Virus record (IMG/VR): IMGVR_UViG_3300048597_000182
Location: 1-40,403 of that record
Origin: a virus
DNA length: 40,403 nucleotides
Direction: 5' to 3' (one strand)
Below, in pieces: positions 1 through 38,677 of this stretch. The translations under genes and the position numbers were made by a program. The notes beneath the pieces were generated by a model. That model made no database searches. It was given only the letters and a program-made list of their open reading frames with translations, and was not told where the DNA came from. Every line of letters starts with the position of its first letter. Positions within the stretch are counted from its first letter, which is position 1.

Positions 1-65
1 ACGTAGTCGCGGACAGGGTCCGCAGTGTCGCCGGCAAACGCCGGCACTGATGCAATGACACTCAC
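1..65 (-). CDS. possible start of a gene leaving the window
   Basis: After the csrA stop codon, a GTG overlapping it (GTGA-type junction, 4 bases shared) opens a frame that runs off the left edge. Only about 21 codons are visible, so no function can be given. The overlap matches the style of other junctions in this window, which is the main reason to list it. A second GTG four bases further on opens another frame, so the frame choice is uncertain. The stretch contains an inverted GCCGGC pair that could instead form a hairpin. Confidence 0.3.
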   Translation of the reverse strand, partial: MSVIASVPAFAGDTADPVRDY

Positions 66-232
66 TTCACGGTCTCCTCGATTGACTTGACCACCTCAGC
101 CCGCACGATCCCAATATCACGCGGTGCGTCGATGTAGATGCGCGTCGCGTGCGACACGCCCAGAGTGATCCGCCGCCCGTCGGGCAGTTGGATCAGGATG
201 ATCTCTCGCGGCTTCCTTGAAATCGCCAGCAT
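62..232 (-). CDS. csrA: CsrA/RsmA-family RNA-binding regulator
   Basis: A 56-residue protein that lines up with E. coli CsrA without gaps over its length. It begins MLAISRK (CsrA: MLILTRK). The A36-P37 pair, R44 and E46 fall at the same residue numbers as in the E. coli protein. R44 and the first beta strand (residues 2-7) are the RNA-binding surface in the family. CsrA dimers bind GGA motifs in mRNA leaders and usually block ribosome binding. The start is ATG 232, preceded by a strong AAAGGAGT ribosome site. It is the third gene of a minus-strand operon (728 to 62) facing the XRE regulator. CsrA is normally a chromosomal global regulator; copies on mobile elements are known, for example in Legionella integrative elements. 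The family call is firm; its role here is inferred. Confidence 0.88.
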   Translation of the reverse strand: MLAISRKPREIILIQLPDGRRITLGVSHATRIYIDAPRDIGIVRAEVVKSIEETVK

Positions 233-243
233 GGTCTACTCCT

Positions 244-369
244 TTAGAACTCACCCCACATCGTGCGGATCGTCTTGCTTTTCCGCCGGCTTCGCCGGCT
301 GGCGTCGTACAGCAGTGCGCCGGCCACCATGCCGATGCCGACGCCGGTCAGGAACGCGACGAAGTCCAT
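244..369 (-). CDS. small single-pass membrane protein
   Basis: A 41-residue product starting at ATG 369, which overlaps the stop of the upstream gene as TGATG. Residues 3-21 are hydrophobic and glycine-rich (FVAFLTGVGIGMVAGALLY), followed by an Arg/Lys-rich tail (RRSRRKSK), the layout of a one-helix protein with a positive cytoplasmic end. It lies between an unknown gene and csrA. I do not recognise the family. The coupled start and membrane-like composition support it being real. Confidence 0.6.
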   Translation of the reverse strand: MDFVAFLTGVGIGMVAGALLYDASRRSRRKSKTIRTMWGEF

Positions 370-854: not shown

Positions 855-883
855 TTGACTGGCACCCGGCCGACGTGGATAAT
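855..883 (+). promoter_or_regulatory. sigma-70-type promoter for the XRE regulator gene
   Basis: TTGACT at 855-860, a 17-base spacer, and GATAAT at 878-883: 5/6 matches to each consensus hexamer at ideal spacing. The first operator (885-898) starts two bases after the -10 box, so a bound repressor would block the polymerase. This is the best-formed promoter seen in the window. Confidence 0.75.
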
Positions 884-909
884 ATTCCGAATTCGGAACA
901 CAGAGTCAA
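879..909 (-). promoter_or_regulatory. possible divergent promoter toward the csrA operon
   Basis: On the minus strand TTGACT (909-904) is followed 19 bases later by TATTAT (884-879). The spacer is longer than ideal, but the first 14-bp operator fills it exactly between the two boxes. That would let one repressor control both directions. The TATTAT box overlaps the -10 of the plus-strand promoter. Confidence 0.4.
885..898. promoter_or_regulatory. operator 1: perfect 14-bp palindrome
   Basis: TTCCGAATTCGGAA is a perfect dyad. It sits immediately downstream of the plus-strand -10 box and between the putative minus-strand promoter boxes. A one-mismatch copy follows 34 bp away. It is probably the binding site of the XRE protein encoded at 954. 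Confidence 0.7.
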
Positions 910-953: not shown

Positions 954-1283
954 ATGAACGGGACGATAGCAGCCGGGCCACTCGCCTTCCGGCTGCCGAC
1001 GATCATGCACGCCGAAGGACGCTGGAACGGCGCACGCGCCGCCGAAATCCGCGAGGCTGCCGGCATCATCGCGCGCCATGCGGCCGTCGCGATCGGGGTC
1101 GGGCAGTCGTCGCTGCACAGATGGGAACAGACAGAGGACGAAACAGCGGGCGAACCCCGCGCGTCCGCCGTCGCCGCCCTCGCCGAGCTGTACGGCGTGT
1201 CGGCCGACGAATTCTTCAAACCCGTCGGGTCGCCGATCAAATTCCGTCGCCGGCCGAAACCCCCGGCCGATCCCGACAACTGA
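954..1283 (+). CDS. XRE-family helix-turn-helix regulator (candidate phage repressor)
   Basis: A 109-residue protein. Residues about 30-87 form a Cro/CI-type helix-turn-helix: a helix with REAAGIIARHAAVAIGV, the recognition helix QSSLHRWEQ at 51-59, then AALAELYGVSADEFF. Such proteins bind short palindromes as dimers. I chose ATG 954 because TGGAGTG lies upstream at a good distance and because an upstream start would overlap the operators. The two 14-bp palindromes and the promoter just upstream point to autoregulation. It lacks the C-terminal peptidase domain of lambda-CI-like repressors, so if it is the lysogeny repressor it is a short one. The role is inferred from position. Confidence 0.8.
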   Translation: MNGTIAAGPLAFRLPTIMHAEGRWNGARAAEIREAAGIIARHAAVAIGVGQSSLHRWEQTEDETAGEPRASAVAALAELYGVSADEFFKPVGSPIKFRRRPKPPADPDN

Positions 1284-1332: not shown

Positions 1333-1370
1333 TGAATTCCACTTGCGTGCATGCACCTAAGTGGAATTCA
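1333..1370. repeat. 38-bp nested dyad between convergent genes
   Basis: Outer arms of 12 bp (TGAATTCCACTT and its complement) are perfect. The centre is a perfect 10-bp palindrome, GTGCATGCAC, sharing the same axis. Only two base pairs in each half-site fail to match. The last three bases contain the stop codon of the winged-helix gene. It could be a bidirectional terminator, an operator, or a recombination site near the integrase. Confidence 0.6.
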
Positions 1371-1748
1371 ATCTGCCCGCACTTCCGCGATAGCATACCC
1401 CCGACGATTGACGCGATTGAGCCGGCCCGACTTCACCAGCCGGGCCAACGCCTTGACGATCGTGCTTTCGGCGTGGTCGCGTTCGAGGGCGTCCACGATC
1501 GCCGGCCGCAGCCGACGTTGACCGTCGGACAACAGCCGCAGGATCGCGGCCTCACACGGCGTCGGGATGTCATCGTCGTGGACGACGGTGATGGCGTGCG
1601 ACGGGGTCAGCGTCACAGTCCCGACCAGGCCGCCGAGGCAGACGGTCGCGGTCACAGGTCGCGTGACACAGTCGCGCCAGCGCAGCAACAGGGCGGCAAG
1701 GTCGCATTCGAGCAACAGCTCGGGAGTCTCCACGCGGGGGAGGGGCAT
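1368..1748 (-). CDS. winged-helix DNA-binding protein
   Basis: A 126-residue protein if ATG 1748 is used. The last 60 residues look like a winged-helix domain: CEAAILRLLSDGQ, then AIVDALERDHAESTIVKALA as helices two and three, and SGRLNRVNRRGYAI as the wing. The N-terminal half has no recognised motif. There is no clear ribosome site before ATG 1748; a TTG at 1793 in the same frame would add 15 residues. The ATG is three bases from the ATG of the divergent HTH gene, so each promoter must lie inside the other gene. It may be a regulator of integration or lysogeny, which is inference from position. Confidence 0.55.
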   Translation of the reverse strand: MPLPRVETPELLLECDLAALLLRWRDCVTRPVTATVCLGGLVGTVTLTPSHAITVVHDDDIPTPCEAAILRLLSDGQRRLRPAIVDALERDHAESTIVKALARLVKSGRLNRVNRRGYAIAEVRAD

Positions 1749-1751
1749 GGT

Positions 1752-1991
1752 ATGGGTAGGGGCTTCAGCGGCGGCGGGTGGTCGAATATCCAATCGGCGA
1801 ACGCATCGGCCGAAGTTGAGCCGCTACTGACGGAATCCGAGGTCGCCCGGCGGCTGAGAATCGCCCGGTCGGTCCTGTTCGCCTTGCGGTCGTCCGGCAA
1901 GCTGGGTTACGTTCGCGTCGGCCGCTCGATCCGCTACACGCCGGCACAGGTCGCGGCGTTCGTGCGGCAGCACTCGCAGGAGGCGAGGTAA
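1752..1991 (+). CDS. small helix-turn-helix protein, excisionase-like
   Basis: A 79-residue protein. Residues 25-72 form a MerR/excisionase-type winged helix: LLTESEVARRLRIARSVLFA, then VRVGRSIRYTPAQVAAFV. Proteins like this act as recombination directionality factors or as regulators of the adjacent integrase. The start at ATG 1752 has a GGGGAGGGG site 6-8 bases upstream. Its stop codon overlaps the integrase start (TAATG), so the two are translated together. A small HTH plus recombinase pair of this kind is, from general knowledge, common in planctomycete genomes. Confidence 0.75.
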   Translation: MGRGFSGGGWSNIQSANASAEVEPLLTESEVARRLRIARSVLFALRSSGKLGYVRVGRSIRYTPAQVAAFVRQHSQEAR

Positions 1992-3055
1992 TGGCGAGAT
2001 TGGTGAATGAGCAGGGCGTCGGTTGGCGTCTGTTCGCGCGGGCCGACGACCGCTGGCGGTCGGTGCGACTGGGGGCGTGCTCGCAACGCATCGCGGAGGA
2101 AATTCGCCGGCGGGTCGAGGCCCTCGAATCCTGTCGCCGGTTCGCCCTGCCCGTCGATGCGTCCACGCTGGCATGGGTCGCTGCGCTCCCCGACGACATG
2201 CACGCACGCATTGCCCGGCTCGGTCTGGTCGAGTCGCGGTCCGCCGTGACGGTCGGGCAGTGGATCGAGCGGGCCGCGAGTGGCTCGGGCAAGAGGCCGC
2301 ACACTGTCCGCAACGACGCGCAGGCCGTGCGGGCGTGCCTGTCGCTGATCGACCCCGCCCGCCCGCTGTCGAGCGTGACCGAGGCCGACGCGGTCGCCGT
2401 GCGGGATGCTCTCTCCGGGCGGTTCGCACAGGCGACATGGGCCAGACATTTGAAACGCATCCGGTCATGGTTCGCCAGTGCCGAGCGGGCCAAGATCATC
2501 GAGTCGAATCCGTTCGCGGGCGTCCGCTGCCCGGCATCGACCAACCCCGCCCGCAAAGCGTTCATCGACCGCGACACGTTCGCCCGCGTGGTCGATGCCA
2601 CCGACGATCCGCATTGGCGGCTCGTGCTCGCACTGGCCCGCTACGGCGGGTTGCGGGTACCGTCTGAGGTGTTGGGGCTGCATTGGTCGGACATTGACTG
2701 GCGGGCCAACACGATCAGGGTCCGGCAGCACAAGACCCGCGAGCGGACGATGCCGTTGTTTCCCGAACTGCGTCCGTTCCTCGAAGCGATGCCGCGCACC
2801 GGCTCCGATCATGTGGTGACGCGGGCCAGGGCAAGCGCCCCGAACTGGCGCGGGCATGTGCTGCCGATCGTGGCGCGGAGCGGCGTGCGCGCGTGGCCGA
2901 AGCTGTTCCACAATCTGCGGGCGTCCCGCGAGACGGAGTTGTGCCAGTCGTTCCCGCTGCATGTCGTCGCGAGCTGGCTCGGCAACTCGCCAGAGGTCGC
3001 GACGACCCACTACCTCACGGTCACGCCGGCCGACTTCGCGGCGGCGGTGGCGTAG
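1991..3055 (+). CDS. int: tyrosine recombinase (phage integrase)
   Basis: A 354-residue site-specific recombinase. The N-terminal SAM-like core-binding domain spans about 88-180, and the catalytic domain about 190-345. Visible catalytic residues are Arg222 (GGLRVPSEVL), Lys248 (QHKTRER), His307 and Arg310 (HNLR), and Tyr341 (THYLTV). Trp329 in SWLGN replaces the usual second His of LGH, a substitution found in many family members. It should integrate and excise this element. It is translationally coupled to the small HTH protein upstream and followed by terminator-like hairpins. The attachment site is not identified with confidence; the non-coding stretch after the gene is the natural place to look. 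Confidence 0.93.
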   Translation: MARLVNEQGVGWRLFARADDRWRSVRLGACSQRIAEEIRRRVEALESCRRFALPVDASTLAWVAALPDDMHARIARLGLVESRSAVTVGQWIERAASGSGKRPHTVRNDAQAVRACLSLIDPARPLSSVTEADAVAVRDALSGRFAQATWARHLKRIRSWFASAERAKIIESNPFAGVRCPASTNPARKAFIDRDTFARVVDATDDPHWRLVLALARYGGLRVPSEVLGLHWSDIDWRANTIRVRQHKTRERTMPLFPELRPFLEAMPRTGSDHVVTRARASAPNWRGHVLPIVARSGVRAWPKLFHNLRASRETELCQSFPLHVVASWLGNSPEVATTHYLTVTPADFAAAVA

Positions 3056-4455: not shown

Positions 4456-4474
4456 GGTAAAGCGGGTTTACCTT
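4454..4474. terminator. inverted repeat joining two convergent genes
   Basis: AAGGTAAA-GCGGG-TTTACCTT: a perfect 8-bp stem with a 5-base loop. It contains the stop codons of both the plus gene (TAA ending at 4455) and the minus gene (TAA starting at 4470). It probably ends transcription in both directions. Confidence 0.5.
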
Positions 4475-4830
4475 GCGACCGCGAACATCCCTTCATCGGC
4501 GGGCTTTACGCTGCCGACCCGCTCGGCGATCAGCTTGACGTACTCGGGATTCAGTTCGCATCCGACCGCATCCCGACCCAGCCGCACCGCCACCGCCAGC
4601 ACCGTGCCCGATCCGGCGAACGGGTCGAGGACCGTGCCGCCCTTCGGACAGACCGCCTTGATGCACGGCTCCACCAGATCGGCAGGTATCACCGCGAAGT
4701 GGGCACCTCGGTACGGCCGTGGTGCGATCGTCCAGACGGACCGGCTGCGACACCTACTGCCCGCGCTCGGGCTGACGATCGCGGACCAAGGCCCCGCCAC
4801 ATCGTGACGATTGGCGGAGCTTTGGCTCAA
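4468..4830 (-). pseudogene. truncated DNA methyltransferase (C-terminal part)
   Basis: 120 residues. From about residue 29 on it matches the C-terminal part of beta-class DNA methyltransferases: SVWTIAPRPYRGAHFAVIP, then DPFAGSGT at 69-76 (the S-adenosylmethionine-binding FxGxG motif), then GCELNPEYVKLIAERV. The N-terminal part with the catalytic DPPY motif is missing, and the first 28 residues look unrelated. A family member would be 250-400 residues. The ATG at 4830 overlaps the stop of the C39 peptidase gene. It is probably a remnant left by a deletion or recombination; it could not methylate DNA by itself. Confidence 0.7.
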
Positions 4831-5318
4831 TCCGGCACCCCCTTCACCGGCCGCGCGAGTCGCGGCCTGATCCTCATCGACACGGCCACGCGATCCACCC
4901 GCCGGCCGCGTCGATCAGTATCCCACCACCGCCGGTAAAACTCAGTCACCGGCAGCCACCGATAGCACCTCTGCACGCTCGCCGGGTCCATCACCGTGAC
5001 CCGCGTGCGGCTCATGCCGACGACAACGACCCAGTGACCCGTGCCGTAGGCTTGCATCGCCGCGATCACCGGCCCGCTGAGCAGGCAGCCGGCCAACTCG
5101 TCGAGATCGCTGTCCACGGTCCACGAGCATGGCACGCCAGCCGCCTCCAGGACGCCGGCCAGGTCGGCCGCGTCGCAGCCGTGCCGACGGCTCGCCAGCC
5201 TGATGAGCTGGTCCGGCAACGGGCGGAACCCGGCGTAGGTCAGCACGGCATCGAGGCAGGCCGGGCCGCAATCGTGGTCGTCGCGTTGATGCACGACGGG
5301 GATGGGGTGGGAGATCAC
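4827..5318 (-). CDS. C39-like cysteine peptidase
   Basis: A 163-residue papain-fold protein. Gln11 and Cys17 in QRDDHDCGPACLDAVL, His95 in GTGHWVVVVGM and Asp111 in VTVMDPAS reproduce the catalytic set of peptidase family C39, which cleaves leader peptides at double-glycine sites or, in free-standing members, unknown substrates. There is no signal peptide or membrane segment. The start GTG 5318 overlaps the stop of the metallophosphoesterase gene (GTGA). It is unusual as a phage gene; possible roles are virion maturation, lysis or attack on host proteins. Confidence 0.75.
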   Translation of the reverse strand: MISHPIPVVHQRDDHDCGPACLDAVLTYAGFRPLPDQLIRLASRRHGCDAADLAGVLEAAGVPCSWTVDSDLDELAGCLLSGPVIAAMQAYGTGHWVVVVGMSRTRVTVMDPASVQRCYRWLPVTEFYRRWWDTDRRGRRVDRVAVSMRIRPRLARPVKGVPD

Positions 5319-6610
5319 GCGTCCCGCACCGGCACGACCGCATGACCAGCGTACCCGCGCCGTTCGCCGTACCAGTAGACTTCGGCCGCCCGCGTCGTCC
5401 CGACATACCCGCGACGGTGATGCCATGCGTCGGTGCCGGCAATCGACCGCAGCACGCGGACGACCGTGCCGTCGTGCGTATCGACCGGCTGAGTCTGCCA
5501 CTGCCTCGACCGGTGATGATGCCCGAGTAGCCATTCGCGGCAGGTCGCCGCCGCCCAGTCGTCCGGCCGTTCCGTCGCCATGAGAGCCGGCAATGACTGC
5601 GGCTTTTCTTCGCTGCCGTGCGTCATGCCGATGAGCGTGCACCCGTGCCGGACGTACTTACGCGGGCTCGGCGAGTAGTCCACGGTGACAGCCTTCGCTG
5701 CGCGGAACCAGGCCGCGACCGTGCGGGCGAGGTGATAGCTCGTCGTCGGGTCGTGATTGCCCGGCACCCAGACCACGTCCACCGGGGCGATGTTCAGCAA
5801 CGTCTCGACCGCCCACACGACTGCCATTTCCCCGGCTTCGATGAGTTTGGCGTACCGCCCGTCAACGTCTTGCGGCGTGCCGGCGTAGGTCGTGTTGCGT
5901 GAGTTGTCAACGTGGAAAAAGTCGTTGCCGATGGGCAGCAGGAACCGCCCGACCTTGCGGCCCTCCGACTCGCCGATCATGTCATCGACTGCATTGCGGT
6001 ACAATCGCTCGGCTGTAGACAGGTCGTAGTTATGGCCCGTCTCGGCGCCCCAAGCGAGCTTGCCAAAGTGGGCATCGAACAGACCGACGACTGTAAGAAA
6101 TCGCTCTGCGTTTTTCTTACTGACCAGCTTCGGTTCGGGATACTTTGGGGCCTTGCTGGCGAGCCGGTTGTAGATCGCGTCAAGGGCGGCTTGCAGATGC
6201 CGCGAAACGATCCGCTTCGCCTTGATCCGCACGCCGTAGTTCTGCTTGATGACTATGTCATCGTGGTCTCCGGCCCGGACTTTCGCCGTCGTTGTCCATG
6301 TCTTTGTTTCGACTTCGACGATGGTGTATGTCGTGGTGTCGATCCCCGTCGCCGCGATGGCCTCATCGACTGTCTTGATTGGCGTGTCACTGACGGCCGA
6401 GAAGAACGCCGTGCCGTCCTCGCGTTCGACGAACCCCGGCTCTAGTGGCCGGCTCTTTTGCGACTCAGGCGGGGCGTAGCCGCGTGTGTGATTTTCGATC
6501 GCGCCGTAGCTGATGCCGAGCGCTTCGGAAATCTCGCGGATCGACCGCCCGGCCGCCCGCAACTCGCGAGCCTTCGCCTTGACGTCAGCGGGTAGGCCGG
6601 GGTTCGGCAT
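5315..6610 (-). CDS. HTH-metallophosphoesterase fusion
   Basis: A 431-residue protein. Residues 8-45 form a helix-turn-helix (RSIREISEALGISYGAIENH). Residues 172-400 form a calcineurin-like metallophosphoesterase with its metal ligands visible: Asp179 and His181 (FDAH), GND at 228-230, GNHD at 284-287, His331 (THGSE) and GHHH at 363-366. The enzyme should hydrolyse a phosphodiester, perhaps of nucleic acid. Similar HTH-phosphoesterase proteins are found in phages, without an agreed role. It is followed with GTGA overlap by the C39-like peptidase and preceded with overlap by a small coiled-coil gene. The fused HTH suggests that it acts on DNA. Confidence 0.82.
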   Translation of the reverse strand: MPNPGLPADVKAKARELRAAGRSIREISEALGISYGAIENHTRGYAPPESQKSRPLEPGFVEREDGTAFFSAVSDTPIKTVDEAIAATGIDTTTYTIVEVETKTWTTTAKVRAGDHDDIVIKQNYGVRIKAKRIVSRHLQAALDAIYNRLASKAPKYPEPKLVSKKNAERFLTVVGLFDAHFGKLAWGAETGHNYDLSTAERLYRNAVDDMIGESEGRKVGRFLLPIGNDFFHVDNSRNTTYAGTPQDVDGRYAKLIEAGEMAVVWAVETLLNIAPVDVVWVPGNHDPTTSYHLARTVAAWFRAAKAVTVDYSPSPRKYVRHGCTLIGMTHGSEEKPQSLPALMATERPDDWAAATCREWLLGHHHRSRQWQTQPVDTHDGTVVRVLRSIAGTDAWHHRRGYVGTTRAAEVYWYGERRGYAGHAVVPVRDA

Positions 6611-6782
6611 TCTGCCCCCTCATGCGTGCCAATTCGGTTTCGACCGCGTCGAGCCGCTGTTGCAGTATCTCGCGGGCCGCCTCGCTTGCCGCAAGCTGCC
6701 GGCGCAGGTCGTCGAACGTGTCGCACGGCGCCTGACACGGCGACAGATGGCGGGCGAGCCGCCAGCAGGAGGGCGGGTTCAT
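6585..6782 (-). CDS. small coiled-coil protein
   Basis: A 65-residue protein starting at ATG 6782, which overlaps the methyltransferase stop (ATGA), and ending inside the start of the next gene. Residues 22-54 form a heptad-patterned coiled coil (FDDLRRQLAASEAAREILQQ followed by RLDAVETELARM). The family is not recognised. It could be an accessory subunit of the neighbouring enzymes or a spanin-like structural piece. Confidence 0.5.
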   Translation of the reverse strand: MNPPSCWRLARHLSPCQAPCDTFDDLRRQLAASEAAREILQQRLDAVETELARMRGQNAEPRPTR

Positions 6783-7948
6783 GGCGCGGCCCCAAACAGC
6801 CCGGCCTTGCCCGCCGCATGCGTAAGCCGGGCCACGGCAATCTCAGCGTAGTCCGGCTCCTTTTCGATGCCGACGAACCGAAAGCCCCCAAGCAGTGCCG
6901 CCTTGCCCGTCGATCCGCTGCCGGCGAACGGGTCGAGGACGATGCCGCCGGGCGGAGTGACCAGCCGGCACAGGTAACGCATCAGATCGGTAGGTTTAAC
7001 GGTGGGATGGTTGTTGCGCTTCAGCGGCATCGGTGTCTGCCCGATGTAATTTTTGGGGTTTTCTGGGTTACGCCCGTCAATGTTGTGGCATGGCGCAATA
7101 CGCTTATCAAACCCCTCGCACCCCTCATCCCGATCCCGCTTGCTCGCCTTCGCACAGTAGAAGTACCGGGCGGCTTTGCCCATGCCGGCCGTCGCCTCCT
7201 CGCTGCCGTCGTGGATCAAGTTGGCGGGCCAGCGGCCAGCGGGGGCTGCGCCAGTAGTCTGGGTGTCTCCCTTGCCGCCCGGCTGAAACTGTCCGGGCGC
7301 ATAACTCTTCGACGTCGGCCACGTTTCCACCGTGCTGCCCACCCTGCACCCATCAATGTTCAACGCCCCCGTCCCGTACCGCGTGACGTTCGCGGCGACG
7401 GTGCCGGCGAGCGGCTTGCGGGCCACGATGATCGGTTCCCATGCGGGTTTCAGGGCGGTCCCCCAGCCCTGCCAGCGGGCCGCGAGGGGCGTGGCTGGCA
7501 AATCATACCGTGGCCTTGTGTGACTACTGCCCGTGTCCCAGCCGCCGTATCCATCGCGCTGCACGACCCCTGCCCTTGTTACCTCCCGCACCGCGCCCGC
7601 TTCCTTGTCAATCGCCTTGCTGACGTCGTGCGACTTGGGGAATCCACTGCCGTAGACCCACATGATGCAATCCCTAATCTCCCAGCCCGCGTCCTCAATG
7701 GCACATGTCAGCCGGTGATACGTCCGCGTGCCGCCGAACGCGAGCATGTGCGTGCCGGGCTTGGCGACTCGCAACGCCTGCAACCAGAAGTCAACGTCGG
7801 GGATGCCGTGGTCCCAATGCTTGCCCATGAATGACAGACCATAGGGCGGGTCGGTGACAATGCTATCCACCGACTCATCCGCCATGCCGGCCATCACGTC
7901 GAGGCAGTCGCCGACGTGGAGCGTCCACCCGTCGCCCTGATGCGTCAC
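6779..7948 (-). CDS. beta-class DNA N6-adenine/N4-cytosine methyltransferase
   Basis: A 389-residue enzyme. The catalytic DPPY motif is at 33-36 (SIVTDPPYGLSF) and the S-adenosylmethionine-binding FAGSGST at 341-347; this order defines the beta class. Between them is a long target-recognition region of about 250 residues. No restriction endonuclease lies alongside, so it is most likely an orphan that protects phage DNA from host restriction. The GTG 7948 start overlaps the preceding stop (GTGA). The specificity cannot be read from the sequence. The methyltransferase remnant at 4468 belongs to a related class. Confidence 0.9.
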   Translation of the reverse strand: MTHQGDGWTLHVGDCLDVMAGMADESVDSIVTDPPYGLSFMGKHWDHGIPDVDFWLQALRVAKPGTHMLAFGGTRTYHRLTCAIEDAGWEIRDCIMWVYGSGFPKSHDVSKAIDKEAGAVREVTRAGVVQRDGYGGWDTGSSHTRPRYDLPATPLAARWQGWGTALKPAWEPIIVARKPLAGTVAANVTRYGTGALNIDGCRVGSTVETWPTSKSYAPGQFQPGGKGDTQTTGAAPAGRWPANLIHDGSEEATAGMGKAARYFYCAKASKRDRDEGCEGFDKRIAPCHNIDGRNPENPKNYIGQTPMPLKRNNHPTVKPTDLMRYLCRLVTPPGGIVLDPFAGSGSTGKAALLGGFRFVGIEKEPDYAEIAVARLTHAAGKAGLFGAAP

Positions 7949-9040: not shown

Positions 9041-10846
9041 TCAGCGGCGTCGCCGCGGCGTCAGGACCAGGAACAGGAGGAACCCGCCGACCGCCACCAG
9101 GATCGTCGGGTCGATGTTTGCGAGTGGGTCGCTGCCCTTGCGGCGGGCCAGTTCGGGGCGGTAGTTGGGGTCCACCTCGCGCAACGCTTCGTGCAACGTG
9201 TCCGCGAGGACGGCCGGACCGGGGTAACTGTCAAGCCGTCCGAGATCGACCGCCTTGCCCTGATCGGTCTCGGGCCCGAGCAACTGGATCGTCGGCGCCC
9301 CGCTCGACTGGATGCCGACGGCGAGGGGCCATTCGCCCGCGGCGTAGGACTGCACGACGATCCGCGGCTTAAACGGGGCCAACTCGGGGTTGGTCTCGAG
9401 ATCGCGGAGGACGGCGGACCGCTGCTCGGGCGTGCCGCCGGCGACGACGACCCACACCTTGCCTTTCACGTCGGGCAGCACCCCGCTACCCGCCGCGTGA
9501 ATCGCCCCGAGAAGCTGCTCGCGGCTGACCGGCACGCCGTTGATCTCGTAGCCCGGCGACCGCCTGACCTTATCGGGCTCGACGCCAAAGATCGGCTGGT
9601 GATCGCCGCCGCGCGGCGTGCCGGCCGTCGCCCACGCAGACTCGGGGATCGGCACGGGCGGCAACACGTCGTGCTGGAACTGGCCATCGGTCCCGAGCGA
9701 GCTGTAGAGATCATCCCGCCGGCGATAGCACCCGACCTGTTTGCCGTCCTTGAACAGGCACCAGTACCCGGCCGGGTCCGTGACTGACTGCCGCCATTCC
9801 CAGCCGCTCGAACCGCTCGCCGATGCGGCAGTCGAGATCGACGGCGCCGCCAACGCAGGGGCCACCATCGCAGGCGGCGGAACGTATGCAGGTCCACAAC
9901 TGGCACATTGTCCGATCATCACTGGTTCCCTCGCTGCCGTGCGGTTGACCGGCACCGGAGGCGGCGGCGGCTTCAAGAGCGCCACGGCCCATCCACCACC
10001 ACCACCTTCCTTCCACCGCTCCACAAAGTCCTTGCAGCTCATCCACAGAAGTTGCCCGGGGTAGTTGTTGTCCAAGATCGCCGCCCGGTCCGCGGCTTTG
10101 TCGTAACAGACCAGGTTGACCATGTGCGGGACGCTCGACCGGTAGTAGATGCCGTCGCGGCCGGAGTACGTCACGGCGAGCATGATGCGATGCTCGTGGG
10201 CCTCTTCGAGGATCGCCACGTCGCCGTTCGTGACTTGCAAATAGGGCGGCTCAGTGATGCCGGTCTCACGGGAGAACTCGGCGATCATTTTCTTGAGCTT
10301 GTCCGGGTAGCCACCGCCCGGTCGCGACTTCATCCAGTCGCGGAACTTGGTCAACTGGTTCTCGCCGTGCCAGTCGGCACAGTGACCGACCGAGGTGAAC
10401 ACGCACAGGCCCGCCCCGTCGCTGCCGCCGGTGTTCCGCTGGTGTCGCGCGGCCGGCAGGTCGCACGCGACTTCGACGCCGTCCATCGACGGGCCGCCGA
10501 CCACGAACTTTGCGGCCGTCCGCTGGCCATTGACGGCAACCGGCGAGCCGATCAGTGCGACCGGCTCCGGGCCCCACTTCGGCTGCGGGCAGTTCGGGCC
10601 CGGACACTTCGGCTGCGGGGTTCGCGGCGCCGGCTTCGGCCGTGGCGTCGGCAGCGGGAAGGGCAGAGGTTGCGGCGTCACGGGCTGCTGCCCGCCCCAC
10701 CGCAGACCGAGCACGTCGCGCAGCCACGCCGGCATCGACGGCCCGGTGAGATCGCGCAGCCACCACGGCTTGTTCGATTCGACCGCGACGTTGATACCGA
10801 TCACCAGCCCGAGCAGGACAACAACCGGCCAGAACAGACGACGCAT
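9041..10846 (-). CDS. membrane-anchored papain-fold cysteine peptidase (candidate lysis or entry enzyme)
   Basis: A 601-residue protein. An N-terminal signal anchor (residues 4-22, FWPVVVLLGLVIGINVAV) is followed by a Pro-rich linker with CPGPNCPQP, then a papain/C39-like domain at about 120-290. Its likely catalytic residues are Cys148 (GAGLCVFTS), His241 (SSVPHMVNLV) and Asp259/Asn260 (ILDNNYPG). A Pro/Ala linker, an uncharacterised C-terminal half and a final membrane helix (TILVAVGGFLLFLVL) ending in five Arg follow. No standard endolysin was seen elsewhere, so this is the best candidate for cell-wall or envelope attack, though that is inference. Two anchors would leave the catalytic domain on one side of the membrane. 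Confidence 0.7.
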   Translation of the reverse strand: MRRLFWPVVVLLGLVIGINVAVESNKPWWLRDLTGPSMPAWLRDVLGLRWGGQQPVTPQPLPFPLPTPRPKPAPRTPQPKCPGPNCPQPKWGPEPVALIGSPVAVNGQRTAAKFVVGGPSMDGVEVACDLPAARHQRNTGGSDGAGLCVFTSVGHCADWHGENQLTKFRDWMKSRPGGGYPDKLKKMIAEFSRETGITEPPYLQVTNGDVAILEEAHEHRIMLAVTYSGRDGIYYRSSVPHMVNLVCYDKAADRAAILDNNYPGQLLWMSCKDFVERWKEGGGGGWAVALLKPPPPPVPVNRTAAREPVMIGQCASCGPAYVPPPAMVAPALAAPSISTAASASGSSGWEWRQSVTDPAGYWCLFKDGKQVGCYRRRDDLYSSLGTDGQFQHDVLPPVPIPESAWATAGTPRGGDHQPIFGVEPDKVRRSPGYEINGVPVSREQLLGAIHAAGSGVLPDVKGKVWVVVAGGTPEQRSAVLRDLETNPELAPFKPRIVVQSYAAGEWPLAVGIQSSGAPTIQLLGPETDQGKAVDLGRLDSYPGPAVLADTLHEALREVDPNYRPELARRKGSDPLANIDPTILVAVGGFLLFLVLTPRRRR

Positions 10847-26308: not shown

Positions 26309-27612
26309 TGCACGCCTCGGAGGTACTCTTGGATCGACCGGCCGTTCGGCCCGAGCAGCCCGGCCCGCTGGTCCTGTTGCGGTTCTTGCGGGCGCAGGAA
26401 ATCACGACTCGGCTGCATGTTTCTCGGAACCATGTACACGTCGCCATCGGGCCCGAGGAGCGGCAGGTTTTCACGCCGCCGCACGTCGTTGACGCTCATC
26501 CAGCCCCACTGCCGGGCCGTCGCGTAGGCCGTGTATCGGTCCGCCACCTTCGCCCGCAGCAAGTGTTCGATGACATGCTCGAAGTACATGTCACGCCGTT
26601 CTTCCACGGTCAGCAGCTTGTAGGACATCTCCTGAGTCCACAGCACCAGCCACGGGAGAATCGAGTAAGTCAGGAAGTCGGCGCCCTGCTCTTCGATGTT
26701 CGAGAACGTCGCCCGGTCGAGGTCTTTGAGCATGTGCGGCGGGACGTTGAACCATCGAGCCACTTCGAGGATGCCGAACTTCCTTGTCTCCAAGAACTGC
26801 GCGTCGTCGGGCGGAGTGCTCAGCGGCTGAAACGCGCTGCCGTCGGCGAGGATCGCGATGCGCTTGCCGCTCTTGCCCTCGCCGTAGATGCTCTGCCACT
26901 CGTCGCGCATCTCCTTCCGCTTCTTCGGGTCGAGCTTCCCCTTGATCGTGAGCAACCCGGACGGCCGGCCGTCGCCGCCGAAGAAGTTGGCGCCGTACTG
27001 TTCGGCGGCCGCGATCGACGCCAGACTCTCGCGGGCCAGCCGGACCGGCGAGTACCCCGTGTAGCCGTCGAACCCAAGCCCCGGAATCCACAGCATGTCC
27101 GCCGATTCGAGGGGGACCTTCGAGTCGATCACGTAGTACGGGTTGCCGTCGTCGTCGATGTCCGGGGCGATCCGGTCCGGCGTGATCGGCCACAGACCGA
27201 TCGGCCGACCGGCCGCGTCCCGCTCAATCTCAGCCCCGGCCCGGCCCCACAACAACACATGAGCCTGCATCGTCTGGATGAGCGTGAACCACGACATCGC
27301 CCGATTCGGCCGGCCGCTCAGCAGATCGCTCAGGGGATGCTCGCGGGCGTGCTCGCGGGAGTCGTCGGCGGTCCGTCGGTACAGGTGCAGGGGGAACGAC
27401 GCGATCGTGTTGGCGACCAGCGTCACCGCGCACCACACCGCCGACAGCGTCGGCGCCGACCGCTCGGTGATCGTCACGCCGGCCGATGGTGGCGTGACGT
27501 TGAAAATCTCAAGGATCGACGACGACGACAGCGGGACCGGCTCGGTCGTGCGGGCGGCTGACGGGCCAGCCCCGAACGTCGCCGAGTCGAACCGAAAATG
27601 TGCCGTCGTCAC
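26305..27612 (-). CDS. portal protein (HK97 type)
   Basis: A 435-residue protein from GTG 27612 (GTGA overlap with the terminase gene). Typical HK97 portal segments are present: SAVWCAVTLVANTIASFPLH at about 57-76, then EHPLSDLLSGRPNRAMSWFT, ARWFNVPPHMLKDLDRATFS and IEEQGADFLTYSILPWLVLW. Twelve copies form the ring through which DNA enters the head. It is encoded between terminase and protease. Confidence 0.92.
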   Translation of the reverse strand: MTTAHFRFDSATFGAGPSAARTTEPVPLSSSSILEIFNVTPPSAGVTITERSAPTLSAVWCAVTLVANTIASFPLHLYRRTADDSREHAREHPLSDLLSGRPNRAMSWFTLIQTMQAHVLLWGRAGAEIERDAAGRPIGLWPITPDRIAPDIDDDGNPYYVIDSKVPLESADMLWIPGLGFDGYTGYSPVRLARESLASIAAAEQYGANFFGGDGRPSGLLTIKGKLDPKKRKEMRDEWQSIYGEGKSGKRIAILADGSAFQPLSTPPDDAQFLETRKFGILEVARWFNVPPHMLKDLDRATFSNIEEQGADFLTYSILPWLVLWTQEMSYKLLTVEERRDMYFEHVIEHLLRAKVADRYTAYATARQWGWMSVNDVRRRENLPLLGPDGDVYMVPRNMQPSRDFLRPQEPQQDQRAGLLGPNGRSIQEYLRGVQ

Positions 27613-29264
27613 AGTTCAAGACTCCCCACGTCGCCTTCCTGCTCCGCCTCAATCGCGGCCCCGATCGCCATCAGCGCGGCCACCGTGCCGTCGATCCGCG
27701 TCGTCGATGACGACTTGCTCGGCGTGCGGTTGCCGGCCCGGGTTTCCTCAAGGGCCGTGTTCGCGACGCACCAACCTAACACCGGGCACCCCGTGTGCAA
27801 AATCCGCCGCTGTTCGATCAGACCTTCAAACTCCAACACCGGGGCCTTGTACATCCGCTCCGTCTGCCGGAACGGCCGGACGACATACCCGTCGGCGTCC
27901 AGTCTCTTCATCGTTTGCACCGCGCCCCACGGGTCGAAAACGAACGCGAGGACGTCGAAGTCCTCGGCGTCGGCCATCAGGTCTTGGCGGACGACGTCGT
28001 AGTCCACGATCCGCCCGGGGATCAGGCTGATATGGCCAGACTCCGCCCATCGGTCATACGGCACGCCGTCCTGCTCGCACCGCTCAGCCAAGTCCTCCTC
28101 GGGCAGCCAGAACCGGGGAACCAGACACCAGACGCCGCCCTCGTCCTCGGGCGGGAACACGTAGACAGCGGCCGTCAGGTCACGCTTCGTTGACAGGTCA
28201 ACGCCTACGTAACACGACCGCCCAGCCAGTTGGGCCACGTCGGTCAGGCCGGCGCACCGGTCCCACGCCTCGCGGCTGATCCACAACGACGCCGCGTCCG
28301 TCGGCATGTTGAGGTTTTTGCGCTTGAAACTGTTCTGTTTGCCCGGGATCGCCTGCGCCTGCCGGACCTTCCGCGCGAACTCCTCCGGGTCGATCGTCAC
28401 CCCGAGATTCGGGTTCGCCTTGACCCACACCGACGGGTCGGTCCAATCGTCATCCTTGTCGAGCGTGGCAATGTAAGCGAAAAGCGAGTCGTCTTCGTGC
28501 TGGCCACGCAGCGCGGCAATATGTGCTTCACGCCGCTCCCACCAAATCGAATGCCGGTCGAACCCGGCCGTCGTGGTAATTAGGATCAGCGGTTGCGAGC
28601 GGGCCCCCATGCCCGTTTCGATCACGTCGTACAGCAGACGCGACGGCCATTCATGAATCTCATCCATGATCGCCGCCGACGGATTCAAGCCGTCGAGGGT
28701 GTGAGCATCGGCCGACAACGGGACGTACTTGCCGCTCATCCGCTCATTGATCAGCGAGTCTTTGTAGACCTTGATCCACTTCCGCAGCCCCGGCGATTTC
28801 TGCACCATCCGCAGCGAATCGGCGTGAGTCAATCGGGCCTGGTCACGCTTCGTTGCCAGCGTGTAGACCTCGGGCCCGTGCTCGCCCGTCATGACCAATT
28901 CCGCGATCCCGATGCCGGACGCGATCGCGGTCTTGCCGTTCTTCCGGCCCACCTCAAGGAACGCCTCGCGGAATCGCCTTGTCCCGTTGGTGCGCGTCCA
29001 TCCGTAGATCGCCCCGACAAAAAACTTTTGCCACGGTTCAAGGACGATCGGCTTGCCGCCCTTCGGTCCCTTGATGTGTCTCAACAGCGTAAAGAATTGA
29101 ACCGCCGCCGACGCCCGATGAGCATTCCACACCAGACCGCGTTCGCGGCCGTTGTCTATGTCACGCAGGTGCCGTTGACACGCCAGCCGAACCAACTCGC
29201 CCGCGACGACCCGCCCGTCTACGACTTCGCGGGCGTAGTCAGTCGCGGCATCACGCCGCGCCAT
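27609..29264 (-). CDS. terL: terminase large subunit
   Basis: A 551-residue packaging motor and nuclease. The ATPase domain shows a Walker A variant VGRKNGKT (106-113) and Walker B AAIMDE (198-203). The nuclease domain shows acidic residues in YVGVDLSTKRD (Asp357), FVFDPWG (Asp445) and RIDGTVA (Asp526-527). This is the HK97/P27-associated Terminase_1 type. I chose ATG 29264, which overlaps the small subunit stop as TGATG; a GTG directly before it is the alternative. Confidence 0.93.
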   Translation of the reverse strand: MARRDAATDYAREVVDGRVVAGELVRLACQRHLRDIDNGRERGLVWNAHRASAAVQFFTLLRHIKGPKGGKPIVLEPWQKFFVGAIYGWTRTNGTRRFREAFLEVGRKNGKTAIASGIGIAELVMTGEHGPEVYTLATKRDQARLTHADSLRMVQKSPGLRKWIKVYKDSLINERMSGKYVPLSADAHTLDGLNPSAAIMDEIHEWPSRLLYDVIETGMGARSQPLILITTTAGFDRHSIWWERREAHIAALRGQHEDDSLFAYIATLDKDDDWTDPSVWVKANPNLGVTIDPEEFARKVRQAQAIPGKQNSFKRKNLNMPTDAASLWISREAWDRCAGLTDVAQLAGRSCYVGVDLSTKRDLTAAVYVFPPEDEGGVWCLVPRFWLPEEDLAERCEQDGVPYDRWAESGHISLIPGRIVDYDVVRQDLMADAEDFDVLAFVFDPWGAVQTMKRLDADGYVVRPFRQTERMYKAPVLEFEGLIEQRRILHTGCPVLGWCVANTALEETRAGNRTPSKSSSTTRIDGTVAALMAIGAAIEAEQEGDVGSLEL

Positions 29265-29728
29265 CACGCCGCGCCATCGGCGAACGCCAGTACCAGCTTG
29301 CCCAGCTCGTCCGGCTCGTCCTTGCCGGCCGGCGTGCTCAGCCGGGCACGGGCAGACGGCGACAGGCCGAACTCCTGCAGAAACGACTTCACACGCGCGA
29401 AGGCGTCACGCTGGGCCCGCATGGCCTGCTTGCTGTCGTCGTGGTATCGCCCAACTTCGTCGAGGTGCCGGGTCGCCAGTTGCAGTTCCGCCGCCGCCTG
29501 ACAGTAGGCCGCAAGCGTCACCTCGTCCGCCGAACTCAGCAGCCGCATCGACCGCAGGATGGGCGTGATGCGTGCCCACTCCTCGCGGGCCTCGCGCGTG
29601 AGCCACGACGGGCACGACGGCTCTTCGGCGGGCGGAGCCGGCTCGTCCTTCGGCAGCCGGCGTTTGCCCGGGTTGCCTTCCAGTTTTTTGACCGCCGTTG
29701 GTTTCGGTGGCGGTCCGCGTCGGCCCAT
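29264..29728 (-). CDS. terS: terminase small subunit (P27 family)
   Basis: A 154-residue protein from ATG 29728. The start RRGPPPKPTAVKKLEGNPGK is the signature of P27-family small terminases (RGRKPKPTALKLLEGNPGK-like). It binds the packaging site and feeds DNA to the large subunit. Its last codons fall in a 13-bp tandem duplication at the junction with terL. The preceding gap (29729-29802) holds no gene. Confidence 0.92.
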   Translation of the reverse strand: MGRRGPPPKPTAVKKLEGNPGKRRLPKDEPAPPAEEPSCPSWLTREAREEWARITPILRSMRLLSSADEVTLAAYCQAAAELQLATRHLDEVGRYHDDSKQAMRAQRDAFARVKSFLQEFGLSPSARARLSTPAGKDEPDELGKLVLAFADGAA

Positions 29729-37777: not shown

Positions 37778-38677
37778 CTAGGTTGTGGACGTGTCAGACT
37801 GCGGCAGCTTCGCCCGCAGCCGGTCGATGAGTTGATCCGCCTGTTGTTGCGTCAGCAGGTGGAGTGCTTCAACGCCGAACGCGGAGCGAAGGCCGGCGAT
37901 AAATGGCGTTTCGGCGATGCTGAGCTTGCTCTGAAGCGTTGAGATTTCGACGATTTGATCTTGTGTTATCAACTGCCGGGGCGTGCCGGCATTGAGCCAT
38001 TCGGCGAGCGGCTGCCAGAACGACGGCCCGGGTTGGTACTCACCAAGCCCGGCGTAGATGCTGCATCGGGTCTTGCTCACCCGTAGCTTGTTGTCGGGGT
38101 CGATGTCGCCGACGAGGTCAAATTCGTACTCGATTCCATCGCGCATGACCGGCGCCGTGCCGATCTTGCGCGGGACCATCTTGCCCCGGTGATCCGGTTC
38201 GAGGATGTACTCTGTCTTGGTCCTCATCGTGGTAATGACATGGCACGGGCAAGCGAGGATCGCGTCTACCATGCGCCGGAACACCGGCGTCACCGTCCGC
38301 CACGCCGCGTAGCTGTTGCCATTTCCGGCGACGTTATCAACCATCTCCAACGCCCCGCCTTTGCCCATCCAGGCATGGCTGAGGCTGTCGATCACGAGCA
38401 CTTCGTACCGTTCGGCGGCGGCCGCGTGGATCGCCGCCTCATACTTTCGCGGGTCGTACTCCGTGAGTTCGAGGACGTCGAACTCCCACGGTTTGCCGTC
38501 GGGGGCTTCCCCTGCGTACTTGCTCGCGGCGCCGTGTTCGGTGTCGATGACCGCGACCCGGCTGCCGAACGCCGTCGCGGCCCGCAGGGCCGTGTAGGTC
38601 TTGCCCGACCCCGATGGCCCGTCCAGGGCGATCCGGGCCTTGAGTTGTTCGCGTGTCGCCTTCTTGAACATCGTCAT
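37778..38677 (-). CDS. RecA-fold ATPase (Sak4-like)
   Basis: A 299-residue protein from ATG 38677 behind GGGAGGAAC. Walker A GPSGSGKT at 20-27 and Walker B YEVLVIDSLSHAW (about 91-103). The rest follows phage AAA proteins of the Sak4 type (ITTMRTKTEYILEPDHRGKM; PRKIGTAPVMRDGIEYEFDL). They promote single-strand annealing and recombination. The C-terminal ~70 residues form a helical domain (SKLSIAETPFIAGLRSAFGV, then LLTQQQADQLIDRLR). Confidence 0.85.
   Translation of the reverse strand: MTMFKKATREQLKARIALDGPSGSGKTYTALRAATAFGSRVAVIDTEHGAASKYAGEAPDGKPWEFDVLELTEYDPRKYEAAIHAAAAERYEVLVIDSLSHAWMGKGGALEMVDNVAGNGNSYAAWRTVTPVFRRMVDAILACPCHVITTMRTKTEYILEPDHRGKMVPRKIGTAPVMRDGIEYEFDLVGDIDPDNKLRVSKTRCSIYAGLGEYQPGPSFWQPLAEWLNAGTPRQLITQDQIVEISTLQSKLSIAETPFIAGLRSAFGVEALHLLTQQQADQLIDRLRAKLPQSDTSTT

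Follow-up and report, generated by a model that had tools for sequence, protein, structure and literature searches.

A divergent CsrA family gene in a repressor-side operon of a temperate, probably planctomycete-infecting phage

The stretch of DNA analyzed here (the window) is the entire IMG/VR record IMGVR_UViG_3300048597_000182, 40,403 bases long, and its left end is occupied by a small minus-strand operon divergent from a gene for an XRE-type repressor. The first gene, orf119 (369-728, 119 aa, codon score +20.5), matched no family in Pfam and PHROG profile searches and overlaps by 4 nt a 42-aa ORF with a hydrophobic stretch (orf42, 244-372, codon score +11.6), which ends 11 nt before the ATG of the third gene, a csrA-like gene (62-232) encoding the 56-aa protein MLAISRKPREIILIQLPDGRRITLGVSHATRIYIDAPRDIGIVRAEVVKSIEETVK. 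A further operon ORF (1-65, minus strand), truncated by the contig end, begins at a GTG that overlaps the csrA stop codon (GTGA), as read by eye. On the other side of the divergent region come the repressor itself (954-1283, plus strand, 109 aa; PF13560, E 1.2e-9), a winged-helix-like protein (1368-1793, minus strand) with a weak, below cut-off match to Penicillinase_R, a small helix-turn-helix ORF that reads as excisionase-like (1752-1991, plus strand) and, overlapped by the latter at its start, a tyrosine integrase (1991-3055, plus strand; PF00589, E 3.6e-10; phrog_1, E 4e-34).

Two sigma-70-like promoters, both proposed from consensus matches only, face away from each other in the divergent region, i.e., TTGACT-17-AATATT for orf119-orf42-csrA (881-909, minus strand) and TTGACT-17-GATAAT for the repressor gene (855-883, plus strand). 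A putative operator palindrome, TTCCGAATTCGGAA (885-898), falls within the minus-strand promoter-like site (909-881) and directly past the -10 element of the plus-strand one, and a second putative copy, TTCCGAATTTGGAA (919-932), was found by pattern match. The operator pattern has five matches in the window on both strands combined against 0.38 expected, and these two are the sole good copies. The first-pass annotation had put csrA under the control of XRE operators; the location of the palindromes at divergent promoter-like sites bears out this placement, and such control is well supported by the arrangement of the sequence.

The same contig carries, by profile searches, a terminase large subunit (27609-29267, minus strand; phrog_9, E 1.3e-164), which marks the element as a tailed phage, together with portal, protease and major head protein genes, and as these accompany the integrase, the element is, on its gene content, a temperate HK97-type siphophage, so that the csrA homologue is indeed phage-borne as first proposed. 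At the opposite end from csrA, on the same strand, lie a Sak4-like ssDNA annealing protein (37778-38677, minus strand; phrog_1366 and phrog_124) and an RNA ligase truncated at the right contig end (39985-40401, minus strand; positions 49-182 of the 186 of phrog_14301). Given this interrupted gene and the absence of an end repeat, the record is a phage fragment, and the genes that follow csrA are lost at the contig end. An exactly circular genome was ruled out, as the contig ends do not overlap and profile positions 1-48 are missing from the RNA ligase. The ligase has relatives in 46 other viral contigs, only one of which encodes a CsrA (a standard one), and its use as a marker tracking csrA was dropped. 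Elsewhere in the window (4468-4830 and 6779-7948, both minus strand) we noted a DNA methyltransferase and a neighboring ORF similar to just the C-terminal part of such an enzyme (DPFAGSGT motif), as well as an ORF with the appearance of a C39-like cysteine peptidase (4827-5642, minus strand; HQRDDHDCGPACLDAVL) that overlaps an exonuclease-like gene (phrog_704) around its start.

The host was sought through a 601-aa papain-like protein (9041-10846, minus strand; conserved segment CDLPA..H..N.GG.DGAGLCVFTS) that had no match in Pfam or PHROG. Its relatives occur in 57 viral contigs and in nine genome contigs, and because eight of these nine are planctomycete (the ninth belongs to a MAG), the phage host is probably a planctomycete (Planctomycetota).

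The csrA-like ORF is a real gene. Its codon log-likelihood is +16.6 in its own frame and does not exceed +0.1 in any other, all five having been scored, its GC3 (0.79) resembles that of the large genes of the same phage, and a strong Shine-Dalgarno sequence, AAAGGAG (239-245, minus strand), sits immediately before the ATG. The first-pass annotation had called the product a CsrA homologue and named a search with the family model as a check; this search returned PF02599 at 35.7 bits (E 8.5e-9) against a curated gathering score of 27 bits, with residues 1-53 aligned to the full domain (1-53 of 53), and family membership is thereby confirmed. The match to the "CsrA-like regulator" family phrog_9500 was weak (E 0.0012), and the protein fell short of the NCBIfam equivalog cut-offs (24.6 versus 73 bits for NF002469 and 22.5 versus 70.1 bits for TIGR00202), so we do not file it as an orthologue of the housekeeping CsrA and regard it, on its sequence, as a divergent member of the family. 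It carries R6, P37, R44 and E46, the last three at the same numbers as in E. coli CsrA, as had been noticed initially and as alignment to the E. coli sequence confirms. In the MAFFT alignment this equal numbering arises from a four-residue insertion at the beta2-beta3 turn and a four-residue deletion before beta4, whereas the Pfam alignment of the same span shows no net change; the agreement may thus reflect either descent or compensating indels.

Among 28 aligned CsrAs of phage, mobile-element and chromosomal origin, L2, E10, A36 and R44 never vary, and P37 hardly does. The phage protein is 22-52% identical to the others, the nearest (up to 52%) being planctomycete chromosomal paralogues, i.e., those of the probable host. 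Most mobile-element CsrAs have two to six additional residues around the beta2-beta3 turn, and no such insertion was apparent, judging from match lengths, among the best-scoring chromosomal matches listed in a search of 81 planctomycete genomes. A tree built on 50 columns is little resolved and places the phage protein closest to the host paralogues without significant support; a single origin of the mobile-element CsrAs was rejected (p-AU 0.025 for the tree holding them together), a weak result given so few columns. Searches of viral contigs with CsrA and terminase peptides revealed no close relatives of the window phage, and tblastn of its CsrA against INPHARED phages gave no match. Purifying selection is evident in two groups of csrA genes from related phages (dN/dS 0.02-0.26), these being relatives and not the window gene itself. 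One subgroup, from four phage loci (MAGRLNGLVLKIKEGERF...), has lost R6, retains R44 and is under purifying selection.

The best AlphaFold2 monomer of the phage protein (pLDDT 91.8; five models ranging from 82.7 to 91.8) consists of beta1-beta5 and one helix (E2-6, E11-15, E21-25, E30-34, E41-44, H45-55). A fold search of the PDB with this model matched no solved CsrA, whereas a chromosomal control (L119) built from the same 28 rows, in which beta1 and beta5 were left unassigned, matched 15 CsrA chains with probability 1.00, so the missing match reflects the phage model and not a failed search. Compared with a viral CsrA model, it gave a weak match (probability 0.98, E 0.44). By contrast with the control, the prediction suggests a closed chain, though a single-chain model cannot decide the oligomeric state. 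Taken further, the phage protein might have lost the strand-swapped dimer and be a closed, single-site CsrA domain that could not bridge two GGA sites and would compete with the many CsrA dimers of the host, planctomycete phages having, on several occasions, taken up and modified CsrA for such use; we consider this very unlikely as a whole.

In order to see how csrA is distributed in comparable phages, we ran CsrA and integrase profile searches on a related set comprising 50 of the 57 viral contigs found with the papain-like gene. With only a handful of genes in common with the window phage, these contigs are better seen as phages of neighboring host range than as its near relatives. CsrA was present, and uninterrupted, in 13 of the 50, and the conservation in related elements that had been proposed as a check is thus found in part of the set; neither outcome named beforehand as speaking against the homologue (no profile match, or a gene missing or broken in all relatives) occurred. 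An integrase occurs in 26/50, in all 13 csrA contigs versus 13 of the 37 others (Fisher p 3.6e-5, a value that overstates independence owing to near-copies and fragments), and in 12 of the 13 the two genes are no more than about 3.3 kb apart (one of them counted only if read as circular), the exception having a standard CsrA at a distance of about 16 kb. In maps with Pfam matches, the integrase is followed by small helix-turn-helix proteins and these by csrA, after which come RecT or primase-polymerase genes, with csrA upstream of recombination and replication genes (RecT, Sak4-like, primase-polymerase); in one case the gene just downstream of csrA encodes a homologue, 41% identical, of the Sak4-like protein of the window. 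Spacing and gene order vary between lineages, and presence is patchy, as csrA is absent from those contigs whose papain-like gene is most similar to that of the window. One planctomycete genome also contains four mosaic islands sharing blocks roughly 90-95% identical, each with a csrA that has a four-residue EDGRR-type insertion and adjoins a replication-like gene.

The initial view that csrA copies are uncommon in phages stands for catalogued phages (85 of 50,697 INPHARED records matched by tblastn with E. coli CsrA; 30 of 2,517 genomes in a literature count, PMC7366521) and does not hold for these planctomycete phages (13/50), bearing in mind that the frequencies come from different methods and are not strictly comparable. 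Phage CsrAs have already been published (PMC7366521; PMC9144972), and the window gene adds a divergent member. Our survey adds how often csrA occurs in planctomycete phages and that it tends to sit on the integrase side, of which a literature search, with most subscription journals outside its scope, found no earlier account.

A close parallel in organization is the temperate Pseudomonas phage phi297 (Table 3 of PMC7366521), where csrA, again divergent from a repressor (a CI-like one), belongs to an early operon that opens with small ORFs (one a membrane ORF). Starting from the repressor and a divergent promoter, one meets there the small ORFs, then csrA, then a nuclease and RecT; csrA is thus followed by recombination genes, whereas in the window the next genes lie beyond the contig end. 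The two phages differ in host phylum and in the protein itself: identity to E. coli CsrA is 67% for phi297 CsrA (over 51 residues) and 29% for the window protein, the latter lacking a match among catalogued phages. In Vibrio phage VvAW1, csrA is located among exonuclease and SSB genes. The Burkholderia Bcep22-like phage JC1 (PMC9144972) also encodes a CsrA family protein matching the Pfam model, but its gene is situated between portal and capsid genes and the product may be virion-associated, unlike the repressor-side csrA of the window. RsmQ of plasmid pQBR103 is, similarly, a mobile-element CsrA with R44, yet it is plasmid-borne, and experiments have demonstrated GGA/AnGGA binding, a changed host proteome, of which it takes control, and heterodimers with host Rsm proteins (PMC9928087). 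The chromosomal paralogues of Planctomycetota (L115, L119) share the APRD..IVR segment with the window protein, but have a standard beta2-beta3 region, and the modeled chain of L119 matches solved CsrA where that of the window does not.

In bacteria, CsrA acts as a global post-transcriptional regulator. The phage protein has R44 at the beta5/helix junction, and because this residue is reported to be essential for RNA binding and GGA recognition (PMC7366521) and important in RsmQ, where R44A lowers binding (PMC9928087), RNA binding by the phage protein is likely. The gene likely encodes an RNA-binding regulator that is made early, under repressor control, and acts on mRNAs of the host and/or the phage. 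In a lysogen, the XRE repressor would occupy the two palindromes between the divergent genes and keep orf119-orf42-csrA off; upon infection or induction, this operon would be switched on before the genes for recombination and replication, and CsrA would bind GGA-containing mRNA leaders through R44, shifting the translation of host and/or phage mRNAs in the early phase to the presumed benefit of the phage. To this explanation as a whole, a temperate tailed phage of planctomycetes with a divergent, XRE-repressed early CsrA that shifts early-phase host and/or phage translation, we assign a probability of roughly 0.6. Counting against it, GGA sites are not clearly enriched in the leaders of the window phage, no titrating RNA was apparent in the window, neither as an Rfam match nor as an unusual A-N-GGA cluster, gene order and spacing vary between lineages, and the modeled chain, unlike the chromosomal control, does not match solved CsrA.

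The protein could instead act mainly within the phage, timing early gene translation or the lysis-lysogeny choice and autoregulating its own leader, with host effects being incidental. The csrA leader lends itself to this idea, as the Shine-Dalgarno (AAGGAG within the stretch given above) doubles as an A-N-GGA motif that folding predicts to lie in a hairpin loop (a single site) and a second A-N-GGA follows at +16, and the recurring placement beside repressor and integrase would also fit. Such sites are, however, expected often, any Shine-Dalgarno resembles GGA, this is just one such leader, and the other leaders of the window phage follow no clear pattern; we think this role unlikely. Somewhat harder to sustain is that the protein serves as a competitor of host CsrA, blunting the host network through heterodimers or site competition, which we view as distinctly doubtful. 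All 81 genomes sampled from one planctomycete family encode CsrA, in 3-16 copies per genome (median 9), so a phage of such hosts would enter a cell already crowded with CsrA regulators, and the heterodimers of RsmQ offer a precedent (PMC9928087), but the phage protein is 22-52% identical to other CsrAs, and the closed chain suggested by its model would argue against strand swapping with a host chain. That csrA is a mere passenger, acquired from the host and expressed with no benefit to the phage, would agree with its nearest sequences being host paralogues and with its patchy presence, but strong purifying selection in related phages and the repetition of a similar csrA site in separate lineages make this highly improbable.

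Phage copies of csrA have so far been regarded as occasional extras. In the temperate phages surveyed here, the gene is repeatedly found next to the integrase, and their hosts' phylum includes a family that, as sampled, has 3-16 CsrA copies per genome. If phages of Pseudomonas, Vibrio and planctomycetes have repeatedly taken csrA into their early operons, then controlling host translation as infection begins may be a strategy of phages in general, and one open to testing.
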